Assembly: GCF_009649075.1 (NCBI RefSeq)
Contig: NZ_CP045737.1
Location: 3,348,001-3,412,000, forward strand
Direction: 5' to 3'
From: Aeromicrobium yanjiei
GTDB lineage: Bacteria > Actinomycetota > Actinomycetes > Propionibacteriales > Nocardioidaceae
Length of the DNA stretch: 64,000 nucleotides
Shown in pieces: positions 21,874 through 62,113 of this stretch; within the stretch, counting starts at the first letter, position 1; every line of letters starts with the position of its first letter. Both the position numbers and the translations under genes were made by a program. The notes below the pieces were generated by a model that was given only the letters and a program-made list of their open reading frames with translations, ran no database searches and was not told where the DNA came from.

Positions 21874-23769
21874 TCAGCGAGCCGCGCGCAGGAGCTTCTC
21901 CAGCAGCGGCCCGGCGGTCGCGGACCCCGAGTCCCCGTCCCAGACGAACACCGAGACCGCGAGATCACCCTGGGTCCCGATCATCCACGCATGGGTCCGC
22001 GGCGGGACCTCGTCGCCGTACTCCGCGGTGCCGGTCTTGGCGCCGACCGGCGGTCCGGGCACGTCCAGGAGGAAGCGTCCACTTCCGTCGGTGACGACCG
22101 CGCGCATCATGTCGGCGAGGCTGGTCGCCTCCTGGGCCTTGAGCGGCTTCGCCGGGGCGGACGTGTCCTTCGGCTTCAGGTCCGGCAGCAGCACCGGGGT
22201 GACGAGCCGGCCGTCCTGGACCGAGGCAGCGACGACCGCCATCGCCAGCGGCGACGCCTCGATACGGCCCTGGCCGATCATCGAGGCCGCCCGTTCCGTG
22301 CCCTTCGCCGTGTCGGGCACCGACCCGAGGAACGCCGGCACGCCGAGGTCGACGTCGCGGCCGAGCCCCAGCGCGTACGCCGCATCGGCCAGCCGGTCCT
22401 GCGGGGCCTTGTTCATCGTGGCGATCATCGCGGTGTTGCACGAGTTCGCGATCGCGGTGGTCAGGGAGACCTTGCCCAGCGCGGAGGACGGGTAGTCCGA
22501 GTAGTTCTTGAACGTCCGACCGTCGACCGTGACGGTCGGGGTGCACGGCACCTTCGTGCTCGGGGTGACGCCTGAGCGCAGGAACGCCAGGGCGGTCGCG
22601 ATCTTGAATGTCGATCCGGGGGCGTACCGGCCCGAGGTCGCGGTGTCGTTGCCGTCACCACCTGGTCCGCTCGCGACGGCCAGCAGCTCACCGGTCGACG
22701 GCCGGACGGCGACGATCGCACTGGCCGGATCGACGTCGCCCAGGATGTCGTCGGCCGCGGCCTGCAGCTTCGGGTCGAGCGTCGTGCGCAGCGACGTCCC
22801 GTCCGTCGGCTCGCTGGTGAAGACCTCCCGCGGGGCGACCGCCGGGTCGCTGACGATCGCGGCGATCTCGAGGCCCGGCCGGCCGCGCAGCTGCGTGTCG
22901 TAGCGCTTCTGCAGTCCCGACAGGCCGACCTGGTCGCCGGGCCCGAGCGCGCCCTTGGAGTCCTCGATGATCTCGGCGGTGACGTCCCCGACCGATCCGA
23001 GGAGCGGCTGCCCGAACGTCCGGGTGGGCCCGAGCGGCAGCTCGGCGTCGATGCCGACCGCTCCGGGGATCTTGGCCAGTGCAGCGTCCGCCGGGGCGTC
23101 CCCCGCTCGTACGACGAGACCCTCGACGAACGCCCGGGCACCGGACGCCTCGACCCGCTTGCGGAACGCGCTGGCATCGATGTCGAGCAGCTCGGCCAAC
23201 GCGGTCGCCGAGCCTCCCGCGGCCCGGGCCTTGACCCGCGTCTTGTCGATGCCCACCCGGACCACCGGCCGCTGGGTGACCAGAGGCTTGTCCTTCGCCC
23301 CGAGGATGTCGCCGCGCTCACCGGCGACGGTGAGTGCGGTCAGTCGCTCGTCCCCCTTCACCGGCGCCACGATCGAGGGCTTCCAGTCCACCTCCCACTG
23401 GTCGTCGGCCTCGACCAGCGACGCCTTGGTCGTGTACGACCACTCGGCCCCGCTGACGACGCGGCGGGTCGACAAGGTGACGGTGGCGGCGCCGTCCTGC
23501 TCGACCACCTTCGTGACCCTCACCTTCTGGGTGTTGCCCTCCCCGAGACCCTTGACGATGCGCTCCAGGTCGGCCTGGTTGTCCGTGGCCATCCCCCGCG
23601 TCGGGACCTTCGAGACGTCGCCCGACGTCAGCGCTGCCGCCAGATCGTTCGCGGTGTCCCGGGCGTCGGGCCCACCTCCGCCGCACGCGGCGAGCGCGCC
23701 GACGGCCAGGGCGAGGCCCGCACCGGCGGCCCCCAGTCGAGCAGGGCGGATCCGCCGGGGTGGGAGCAT
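21874..23769 (-). CDS. Class B penicillin-binding lipoprotein (PBP-lipo type transpeptidase)
   Basis: A 631-residue exported lipoprotein with signal peptide and lipobox LAAC (Cys29). An NTF2-like MecA_N domain (about 35-150) is followed by a dimerisation/linker domain (about 165-310) and a transpeptidase domain (about 325-631). Active-site motifs are STFK (386-389, Ser386 nucleophile), SCN (443-445) and KTG (578-580). Length and architecture match the mycobacterial PBP-lipo (Rv2864c) family, a D,D-transpeptidase in septal/cell-wall crosslinking. The ATG at 23769 was chosen because it gives the signal peptide. The upstream region is the 21-bp repeat array. Confidence 0.9.
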   Translation of the reverse strand: MLPPRRIRPARLGAAGAGLALAVGALAACGGGGPDARDTANDLAAALTSGDVSKVPTRGMATDNQADLERIVKGLGEGNTQKVRVTKVVEQDGAATVTLSTRRVVSGAEWSYTTKASLVEADDQWEVDWKPSIVAPVKGDERLTALTVAGERGDILGAKDKPLVTQRPVVRVGIDKTRVKARAAGGSATALAELLDIDASAFRKRVEASGARAFVEGLVVRAGDAPADAALAKIPGAVGIDAELPLGPTRTFGQPLLGSVGDVTAEIIEDSKGALGPGDQVGLSGLQKRYDTQLRGRPGLEIAAIVSDPAVAPREVFTSEPTDGTSLRTTLDPKLQAAADDILGDVDPASAIVAVRPSTGELLAVASGPGGDGNDTATSGRYAPGSTFKIATALAFLRSGVTPSTKVPCTPTVTVDGRTFKNYSDYPSSALGKVSLTTAIANSCNTAMIATMNKAPQDRLADAAYALGLGRDVDLGVPAFLGSVPDTAKGTERAASMIGQGRIEASPLAMAVVAASVQDGRLVTPVLLPDLKPKDTSAPAKPLKAQEATSLADMMRAVVTDGSGRFLLDVPGPPVGAKTGTAEYGDEVPPRTHAWMIGTQGDLAVSVFVWDGDSGSATAGPLLEKLLRAAR

Positions 23770-23826
23770 GCCGAGAAGTAGAACAACTCGCCCCAGCACC
23801 GTCAACCGCGCCCCCCAACCGCCCAC

Positions 23827-24055
23827 GAGCCACGCACGACCGCTGACGAGTCACGTATGGACGGTCGCGAGTCACGCACGACCGCTGACGAGTCACCTAC
23901 GACGGCTGACGAGTCACGTAGGCCGACTCCTCGCCATCCGTACGCGACTCGTCGGCGTCCGTGCGTGACTCGTCGCCATCCGTGCGTGACTCGTCGGCGT
24001 CCGTGCGTGACTCGTCGGCGTCCGTACGTGACTCGTCGGCAGTTGTGCGTGACTC
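23827..24055. repeat. Opposed arrays of a 21-bp repeat between PBP and SGNH genes
   Basis: Twelve units lie at an exact 21-bp spacing. Five copies in one orientation have the core GAGYCAC at 23827, 23848, 23869, 23890 and 23911. Seven inverted copies have the core GTGACTC or a one- or two-base variant at 23923, 23944, 23965, 23986, 24007, 24028 and 24049. The conserved part on the minus strand reads about GACGAGTCACGCAC, followed by a more variable 7 bp. The two halves could pair into a long hairpin. The array begins at the SGNH gene stop codon and ends 58 bp before the PBP start. There are no spacers, so it is not CRISPR. It accounts for most of the 287-bp gap. Confidence 0.9.
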
Positions 24056-24056
24056 G

Positions 24057-25067
24057 TCAGCGGTTGCGGGTGAGGGCGCCGTCGGTCGCGGCAGCCAGCT
24101 GGCGCGCGAGCTGACGCTGCGCGCTGACCGTGAACGTCTTGGTCAGGTGGCTCCCGGCGCGGTAGACGAGCACCCTGCCGATCACGGCGGGGCACCGCTG
24201 CAGTCCCGGGCAGTAGGCCGGCGCCATGTCGACGACCCCCACACCGGGGGTTGCCTCGGCCGCCGCACGCTGCACGGGCGCGGACGACTCGGCGAGCGGG
24301 CCCGCGAGCTCGTAGGCGCACCGCGTCAGGTCGCCGGGGTGGTCCTCGACGCACTGATAGGTCGGGTGCGAGGTCGGCATCGGGTTGTCCAGCAGGACGA
24401 CGACCTGGATGCCGGCCGCCTGCAGCTTCTCCCAGTAGCGCTGCAGGCCGCGGACCATCGCACCCTTGCTCCGCTTGCCGTCGACGACGGCGGTGTCGTG
24501 CACCTGCGAGGTCACCACGACGTCGGGCTTGATCCGCAGGGCGTCCGCGAGGGCGGCCCGGCCCCACTCACGACAGTCGGTGAACGCCTTGCCGCCGCTC
24601 GTCATGTCGGCGTCGGTGAACGCGCAGGCGCTCTTGGTGCTGCTGAGCACCCGCCAGTGCTCACGCCGCCCGAGATTCGCGAAGGCGGTCTGCCACTGGC
24701 CGATCTTGGAGTCGCCGATGAGCATCACGGTCCGCTCGGCGTCCCGGTCGCCGTCGACGCACACCTTCGGCACCGCGTCCCCCGCGAGCACCTGGCACCC
24801 CTCGGCGTAGAGCGCGGGACGATCCTGCTTGGCGTCTCTCGGCAGTGGCCGGACCGAGCGGATCGAGTCCACCGCACCCCAGTCGACGTCTGCGTTCGCG
24901 GGATCCAGCAGCGCCGCCGCACCCGGGCTCTCGCCCGCGCGCGCGAGCGTCAGGGAGCCGCCCGTCGGCGGTGACGGCGACGTCCGACCCACCGTCACGA
25001 CGACTCCTGCCACGACGAGGGCCAGCACGACGAGGGCGCCGACCACCAGACGTGTTCGCGCCGGCAT
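24057..25067 (-). CDS. Membrane-anchored SGNH-fold hydrolase/acyltransferase domain protein
   Basis: A 336-residue protein with an N-terminal hydrophobic anchor (TRLVVGALVVLALVVAGVVV) and an extracytoplasmic SGNH domain. The nucleophile block is TVMLIGDSKIGQWQTAF. A later block resembles the substrate segment SQVHDTAVVDG, and the C-terminal SHLTKTF supplies the catalytic His. This domain is usually the C-terminal part of membrane acyltransferase-3 (OafA-like) proteins; here it stands alone without the 10-helix part. It probably acetylates or deacetylates a surface glycan. GAGGAGG precedes the ATG; the longer upstream frame has no signal sequence. Confidence 0.8.
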   Translation of the reverse strand: MPARTRLVVGALVVLALVVAGVVVTVGRTSPSPPTGGSLTLARAGESPGAAALLDPANADVDWGAVDSIRSVRPLPRDAKQDRPALYAEGCQVLAGDAVPKVCVDGDRDAERTVMLIGDSKIGQWQTAFANLGRREHWRVLSSTKSACAFTDADMTSGGKAFTDCREWGRAALADALRIKPDVVVTSQVHDTAVVDGKRSKGAMVRGLQRYWEKLQAAGIQVVVLLDNPMPTSHPTYQCVEDHPGDLTRCAYELAGPLAESSAPVQRAAAEATPGVGVVDMAPAYCPGLQRCPAVIGRVLVYRAGSHLTKTFTVSAQRQLARQLAAATDGALTRNR

Positions 25068-25149
25068 GCTGCCTCCTCTGGTCGGCTCGGTGATCCGGGA
25101 CGCTGCCACCGTACCGACGGGGGCGATGCAGGCGTGAGAACCTAGCCTC

Positions 25150-25773
25150 ATGTCCGACCAGGCCGCGACGCCCCCGGCACCCCGGCGCGGTCGCCCGGGG
25201 TACGACCAGGAGACCGTGTTGCGGCGCGCGATCGACCTGTTCAACCGGCAGGGCTACGACGGCACGAGCATGGGCGACCTCGCGAAGGAGCTGGGGCTCA
25301 CCAAATCCGCGATCTATCACCACGTGCCGAGCAAGGAGCACCTGCTGTCGGCGGCGCTCGACGAGGCCCTCGACAGCCTGTCGACCGCGGTGGACGGCGC
25401 CGCGGCGTCAGCCCCGGGCACCAGCGCGTACGCACGCCTGCGCACCGTGGTCCAGGAGTCGGTCGAGATCCTGGTGCAGCACCTTCCCGCCGTCACGCTC
25501 CTGCTGCGGGTGCACGGCAACAGCGAGATCGAGCTTGCGGCCCTCAAGCGGCGCCGGGCGATCGACGAGAAGCTCTCGGCGCTCGTGCAGGCCGCCGTCG
25601 ACGAGGGAGCGCTGCGCGCCGACATCCCGCCGGACCTCATCAGCCGGCTGCTCTTCGGCATGGTGAACTCGCTCGTCGAGTGGTACAGACCCGGCGGTCC
25701 GGTGGACGCCGACATGCTCGCGGCCTCGATCGTCGCGCTGGCCTTCGACGGGCTCTCGCTCCACCAGCCCTGA
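25150..25773 (+). CDS. TetR family regulator, candidate PaaR of the phenylacetate cluster
   Basis: A 207-residue regulator. The helix-turn-helix region (YDQETVLRRAIDLFNRQGYD, then SMGDLAKELGLTKSAIYHHV) is followed by a TetR ligand domain. It is convergent with the paa operon, 4 bp from the paaI stop. In actinobacteria a TetR-type PaaR represses paa genes and is released by phenylacetyl-CoA. An operator of the reported style lies between paaA and paaZ (30051-30072). The pairing is inferred from location. Confidence 0.85.
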   Translation: MSDQAATPPAPRRGRPGYDQETVLRRAIDLFNRQGYDGTSMGDLAKELGLTKSAIYHHVPSKEHLLSAALDEALDSLSTAVDGAAASAPGTSAYARLRTVVQESVEILVQHLPAVTLLLRVHGNSEIELAALKRRRAIDEKLSALVQAAVDEGALRADIPPDLISRLLFGMVNSLVEWYRPGGPVDADMLAASIVALAFDGLSLHQP

Positions 25774-42117: not shown

Positions 42118-42123
42118 CCCGCG

Positions 42124-42209
42124 GATTCCCAGGAGAACCCAGGAACCTGTCACCGATCACCCGTCACGACGTGGGTGAGACGTCAGCTTCGGGGGTTCTC
42201 CTGGGAATC
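42124..42209. repeat. Palindromic dispersed repeat/terminator, copy A
   Basis: An 86-bp element bounded by perfect 17-bp inverted arms (GATTCCCAGGAGAACCC at 42124-42140 and its complement at 42193-42209). An internal partial palindrome CACCC...GTGGGTG lies in the middle. It sits between convergent stops at 42117 and 42225, so it could terminate both transcripts. Confidence 0.85.
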
Positions 42210-42224
42210 TGCGACCCGTCGGGC

Positions 42225-43413: not shown

Positions 43414-43499
43414 GATTCCCAGGAGAACCCCGGAATCCTGCGGCGACCACAGGTTGCGCCCGGTGGGACGTGACAGATTCCGTGGTTCTCCTGGGAATC
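43414..43499. repeat. Palindromic dispersed repeat/terminator, copy B
   Basis: Same 86-bp length and left arm (GATTCCCAGGAGAACCC, 43414-43430) as copy A. The right arm is GGTTCTCCTGGGAATC (43484-43499). Inner segments CGGAATC and GATTCCG extend the stem. It starts 9 bp beyond the pyc stop on the minus strand, in terminator position. Confidence 0.85.
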
Positions 43500-61969: not shown

Positions 61970-61998
61970 CCGCCGCCGCCGTGGCGGCTGGGCGCGGT

Positions 61999-62104
61999 TT
62001 CCCAGGAGAACCCCGGAATCTGACACGGCACCCCGGTCGTACCAAGGGTGACGTGCCAGAAACCGGGGTGAGGCCCTGCGGATTCCCAGGTTCTCCTGGG
62101 AATC
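61999..62104. repeat. Palindromic dispersed repeat/terminator, copy C (variant)
   Basis: The left arm TTCCCAGGAGAACCC (61999-62013) and the right end TTCTCCTGGGAATC (62091-62104) match copies A and B. The right end here also has its own hairpin: GATTCCCAGG (62081-62090), loop TTCT, CCTGGGAATC (62095-62104). The total is 106 bp, 20 more than copies A and B. It lies between convergent stops at 61969 and 62114. Confidence 0.8.
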
Positions 62105-62113
62105 CGGGACGGG

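Follow-up and report, generated by a model that had tools for sequence, protein, structure and literature searches.

Opposed 21-bp repeat arrays dispersed in Aeromicrobium genomes and their pairing with genes for AbiEi-like proteins bearing a nuclease-like domain

An array of opposed 21-bp units lies between two genes in the stretch of 64,000 nucleotides of Aeromicrobium yanjiei DNA analyzed here (the window; the genome is referred to as G000). We propose, with a probability of roughly 0.6, that this array belongs to a dispersed, REPIN-like element as one of its gene-less copies and that the partner of the element, a gene coding for a protein with an AbiEi-like region and a nuclease-like domain, lies in the loop of another copy. 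The direct basis for this proposal is the dispersal of the arrays, their head-to-head plan, the gene in the loop, the matching of gene and unit across genomes, and the mostly common sites in the sister species G029; from these we infer binding, cutting, and movement by the partner protein and the arrays.

The array in the window

The array and the genes on either side of it are as follows.

23818..23922, plus strand: forward block of five 21-bp units with cores at 23827-23911 (sequence reading, TRF, and core scan)
23923..24070, minus strand: inverted block of seven 21-bp units with cores at 23923-24049, the first degenerate (sequence reading, TRF, and core scan)
24057..25244, minus strand: SGNH-domain gene (PF19040), whose stop codon meets the inverted block (reading frame and Pfam domain)
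21874..23769, minus strand: penicillin-binding protein (PBP) gene with a transpeptidase domain, PF00905 (reading frame and Pfam domain)

The preliminary description had five units facing seven inverted ones in an exact 21-bp phase, and both the core positions and TRF (period 21, indels 0-2%) confirm this. The forward cores lie at 23827, 23848, 23869, 23890, and 23911 and the strict inverted cores at 23944, 23965, 23986, 24007, 24028, and 24049; the unit at 23923, the seventh of the inverted block, is degenerate, and a further, more decayed unit follows the block near 24070. The outermost inverted unit extends to the SGNH stop codon, while 58 bp separate the first core from the PBP ATG at 23769, a start chosen as the likely one in a frame that at its longest begins at 23826; on these frames, the earlier placement of the array from the SGNH stop to 58 bp before PBP is upheld. 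For the stem of about 100 bp that had been envisaged between the two halves, arms of ~100 nt show 76-79% complementarity. The RNA fold of the array reaches −185.1 kcal/mol, whereas 200 shuffled sequences average −114.6 kcal/mol (z −14); this strength is expected because the array is an inverted repeat. No promoter-like site was found at the array and no intrinsic-terminator-like site in its region, nor did any Rfam 15 family match it above the gathering score, the best being MIR1883 with 46.5 of 128 bits.

A dispersed family with a common plan

Searches for the core in the whole genome and its relatives recovered dispersed arrays in G000 and in other genomes of the genus. Across the 3.68 Mb of G000, a two-unit pattern yields 59 forward and 63 reverse matches versus 0 and 1 for the reversed control, and at least 19 array loci are present, including that of the window. 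Both blocks occur in 16 of the 19 arrays examined, always head to head (forward, then inverted); L028 and L035 have one block only, and in the first array of L037 the second block has decayed. Many of these arrays start directly after a stop codon, as judged by a simple reading-frame caller and sequence reading, and no common theme is apparent among the adjoining genes. Because the array recurs beside unrelated genes at 18 other examined places, the earlier suggestion that it insulates or regulates the PBP gene in particular is unsupported. The possibility that it represents a widespread known intergenic family holds in part: the family is dispersed, but we found no description of it among the open-access papers listed. 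Units agree at 16.9 of 21 positions within a block, at 16.5 between the same block in G000 and G029, and at 15.8 between different G000 arrays; unit similarity is thus weakly informative.

In two places, a one-block array forms part of a long open frame close to its beginning and is read in phase with it, namely L035:4028-4146 in G000 and L095:2540-2638 in G029. These encode six and five DESRTDA-like heptads, respectively, representing use of the repeat as protein. The decayed coding heptad that had been considered for the window array does not apply there, and it is at L035 and its G029 counterpart L095 that in-frame heptads are found.

Comparison with the sister species G029 indicates both age and change. 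For 16 of the 19 G000 arrays, the window's included, both flanks are found at a G029 array, with differing unit numbers; hence, the window array, which recurs with its flanks in this separately assembled genome, is not the assembly artefact that the preliminary description had allowed for. Most arrays are old. In the case of L037, the upstream flank is found at a G029 array and the downstream flank is found there only from ~0.9 kb on. L022 and L023, which are 7 kb apart in G000, each have one flank in common with a single G029 array, L097 (L022:4189-4327 and L023:3135-3315 correspond to L097:2571-2668), as if recombination between arrays had removed a stretch or an insertion had added one; this suggests that arrays serve as recombination points. 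The G000 places matching the G029 arrays L082 and L083 are without an array, and at the former ~0.9 kb alongside is also absent; no G000 counterpart of L098 was found in the stretches compared. A few sites are therefore present in one genome and absent from the other, with the direction of change and the junctions unread, and no exact target site was readable.

A gene in the loop and its product

At G000:C2:1423256-1424459, the two blocks lie ~1 kb apart and enclose a gene of 305 codons, the stop codon of which enters the first inverted unit. This gene (G000:C2:1423431-1424345), within the loop of another array copy, is the proposed partner gene of the G000 family. The same layout is seen in G029, G014, G064, G034, and G061, with proteins 70-92% identical to that of G000, making six genomes when G000 itself is included (70-100% identity). 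G025 has a homologue of 54% identity at another genomic place between blocks of a diverged unit, and G020 has one of 51% between blocks of period 22; around homologues elsewhere of ~50% identity, the inverted blocks are built from very dissimilar units, e.g., CGCTGACGCGTGGGTTCCGCCC or GAGAGACTTTGTTGGTGGC. A GC-rich stem-loop, distinct from the array, lies ahead of it at both L017 and L018. The neighbors at L017 resemble, by translation, genes for a substrate-binding protein and an ABC transporter, and no AbiEii toxin gene was recognized by translation beside the partner gene among the genes called there. At G123:C1:148802-149658, a homologue is interrupted by a stop codon, and an intact one is found elsewhere in G123.

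To our knowledge, no function has been assigned to this large actinobacterial protein family. The N-terminal two thirds of the 305-aa G000 protein is AbiEi-like, with AbiEi models from PADLOC matching residues 22-215 (E=7.4e-13), and its C-terminal part resembles nucleases of the Vsr/MTES_1575 type, MTES_1575 being described as a Vsr-fold nuclease domain in PMC3710099. The G000 protein stays below the Pfam cut-offs (MTES_1575, 20.9 of 38.2 bits; DUF559, 15.7 of 20.6), some homologues exceed those of AbiEi_1, AbiEi_4, or DUF559, and the best MTES_1575 match among the homologues (E=2.3e-9) falls just under its cut-off. The closest solved structure is that of a mobile-intron endonuclease, 3r3p, with a weak profile match (E=0.047). 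Across 35 sequences, 14 columns are invariant, including E200, D232, E243, H250, and D259, and these acidic and histidine residues may constitute the active site. When scanned with Pfam, neither the G000 protein nor any of six homologues showed a Y1 (HUH) transposase domain, and no relative was found in viral contigs. Two AbiEi-type antitoxins, AbiEi and Rv2827c, each bind their own 23-bp inverted repeats and not each other's (PMC7319586); this, together with the AbiEi-like region in the partner, makes the earlier notion that proteins bind the array a plausible one.

Matching of gene and unit across the genus

The association of gene and repeat unit is well supported. Among the 49 genomes of the genus examined, unit A is well above the control in G000 (126), G029 (108), G063 (94), G061 (82), G064 (79), G014 (65), G034 (30), and G025 (24), and the remaining genomes have 0-7. 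The gene is flanked by unit A in seven of these eight, the exception being G063, a 71% complete draft in which no close gene was found. The patterns for units B and C were derived from gene flanks, and the counts of all units take in the copies next to the gene, so that the information lies in the additional copies and in the genomes without a unit. Unit B occurs in G064 (97), G034 (92), G033 (36), G012 (33), and G008 (16), the other 44 genomes having no match (control, 0), and unit C occurs in G032 (49), G030 (32), G002 (31), and G004 (19), with no match in the other 45. The unit B genomes are exactly the five whose gene flanks show unit B, and unit C coincides with a matching gene in three of four, no close gene having been found in G030 (84% complete). 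Each of the three units is therefore dispersed only where a gene copy carries it, the drafts G063 and G030 excepted; Fisher p values for this matching, which ignore relatedness, are 9e-8, 5e-7, and 2e-4 for units A, B, and C. G034 and G064 possess two genes each and both unit families. Across 41 loci, protein identity is correlated with array similarity (Spearman 0.40, reached by 0 of 2000 permutations), a relationship to which common descent contributes. An opposed unit A array is also found on L061, a 6.8-kb contig of the Frankiaceae MAG CAN_BIN20, as either misbinned Aeromicrobium DNA or a transfer.

Inverted flanks and a second family of palindromes

Homologues were matched in 114 of 293 genomes in the order search and in 97 of 396 in the phylum search. 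In a flank test, the flank upstream of each gene was aligned to the reverse-complemented flank downstream of that gene. At a threshold score of 41, chosen after the genus scores were known, and for loci that are the best matches of searches rather than a random sample, 16 of 17 genus loci, 20 of 23 order loci, and 12 of 27 phylum loci reached the threshold versus 1 of 40 control window genes. The failures were L049, L107, L113, L115, and 15 of the 27 phylum loci. L042, L177, and L182 (too short) and L104 (a run of N) were left out, and L058 (too short) and L059 were placed in no group, the latter having scored 111 in an earlier flank comparison. Since an earlier comparison against the flanks of other loci was confounded by genomic flanks common to relatives, shuffles and control genes were used instead. 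The second paralogues of G000, G029, G034, G061, and G064 score 47-140, all five above every one of their 100 shuffles. At L059 (from G066) and several phylum loci, such as L160, L162, and L164, the distant homologue lies between long inverted repeats in place of tandem arrays.

The sole control gene over the threshold is a desaturase gene located between two palindromes of a second family, which consists of simple palindromes on the same plan. Those in the window, without an assigned strand, are as follows.

42120..42213: gene-less second-family palindrome with arms GATTCCCAGGAGAACC, also present in G029
43414..43499: gene-less second-family palindrome, missing from this place in G029
61995..62106: gene-less second-family palindrome, identified by arm matches

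Two of the second-family copies bracket the fatty-acid desaturase gene. In total, the window contains 6 arm matches versus 0.02 expected. In the comparison with G029, the first palindrome is common to both genomes, the second (query 1895-2007) is missing from G029, and about ten further places there have matches to the palindrome part. At L076:1666-2893, a distant G000 AbiEi-nuclease paralogue of 322 aa sits between arms GATTCCCAGGAGAACC and their complement, and further distant paralogues of G000, those in L075, L077, and L078, are likewise bracketed by palindromes; that of L078 has 8 copies in G000, two of them beside the gene, and none in the other 48 genomes. The paralogues in L075-L078 had been considered as negative controls and were dropped, since palindromes flank them too.

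Relation to known systems

The closest parallel is offered by REPIN/RAYT systems, which similarly comprise dispersed, mostly intergenic, hairpin-capable inverted doublets, a gene next to which copies of its repeat lie, and several co-evolving gene-repeat pairs per genome (PMC3116915, PMC8266576, and PMC3733652). Like REPtrons, the arrays are dispersed inverted repeats resembling those beside the partner gene. They differ in having arms built of tandem 21-22-bp units, with the gene placed in the loop that separates them, and a partner that shows no Y1 (HUH) transposase domain, for which reason we do not file them under REPIN/RAYT. Homing endonucleases of the Vsr/EDxHD type share with the partner the location of the gene inside its presumed target and the weak 3r3p match, but the partner locus has no intron or intein and the presumed target persists in many copies that lack the gene. 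The type IV AbiE toxin-antitoxin system is evoked by the AbiEi models that match the partner by sequence and by the 23-bp inverted repeats that AbiEi and Rv2827c bind (PMC7319586); it differs in that the AbiEi-like part of the partner is fused to a nuclease-like domain, the repeats are dispersed over the genome, and none of the genes called at L017 looks by its translation like an adjoining AbiEii toxin gene. Finally, CGTC REPs are also dispersed palindromes, said in PMC3733652 to lack a dedicated transposase, but by description they are set apart as short tagged stem-loops. Among the open-access papers listed, we found none that connects these proteins with repeats, whether flanking or dispersed. 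The repeat-protein partnership and its anatomy appear to be new, and the arrays may also move. We know of no partner enzyme for dispersed palindromes outside the RAYT families so far.

A proposed mechanism and its alternatives

Under the proposed partnership, the AbiEi-like part would read one unit of 21-22 bp, about two helical turns, and opposed tandem units would load several protein molecules on one face of the DNA. The nuclease part might then break or nick DNA at the arrays, with repair or recombination from sister arrays keeping the units alike and altering their number. Now and then, repair could seed a new array copy, often beside a stop codon, and the gene-bearing copy would act as the master copy. 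Weighing against this proposal are the age of most arrays, the arrays of G063 and G030 for which no close gene was found, the derivation of the unit B and C patterns from gene flanks, the loci that fail the flank test, and the sub-threshold nuclease match of the G000 protein. More tentatively, and at somewhat less than even odds, we envisage a class of selfish DNA, widespread in Actinomycetota and REPIN-like in its way of life, that arose independently of HUH transposases. In it, AbiEi-Vsr-like nucleases would spread and maintain matching opposed arrays or palindromes via targeted breaks and copying repair, each nuclease being guided to a 20-22-bp unit of its own by its DNA-binding region.

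The main rival is that the arrays are operators, with the AbiEi-like protein acting as a regulator or roadblock both near the ends of genes and at the gene that encodes it; the copies would then constitute a regulon with nothing mobile. The repression of their own promoters by AbiEi and Rv2827c through the 23-bp inverted repeats (PMC7319586) and the conserved places of most arrays are in its favor, but it sits uneasily with blocks on both sides of the gene, with the many arrays that follow stop codons rather than lying upstream of promoters (that of the window being without a promoter-like site), with neighboring genes lacking a visible common theme, and with the gain or loss of some copies; we regard it as unlikely.

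The frequent place after stop codons and the strong predicted fold would instead be natural for RNA hairpins that end transcription or protect 3′ ends and are spread by another enzyme, the nuclease gene being a passenger. This is improbable, given that the window array region has no intrinsic-terminator-like site, that L017 and L018 already possess a separate stem-loop before the array, and that a passenger gene leaves the matching of gene and unit unexplained. Opposed, phased units at many conserved places might also mark the chromosome as nucleoid or replication sites, with the protein a structural binding partner that does not cut; the absence of any given unit from most genomes of the genus and the invariance of acidic and histidine columns of the nuclease part in 35 sequences render this quite improbable. 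A decayed coding heptad or an assembly artefact is scarcely credible for the window array: 21 bp does equal seven codons, and L035 and L095 use the unit in frame, but the opposed blocks, the intergenic place, and the sites common to a separately assembled genome speak against both.

Implications

A large actinobacterial protein family is now tied, copy by copy, to its own repeat, so that a function for the proteins and a cause for the repeats can both be put to the test. The many natural protein-target pairs could reveal how specificity shifts in a DNA-binding domain. Taken as a whole, the pairing of gene and repeat suggests an undescribed repeat-and-enzyme partnership in actinobacteria.
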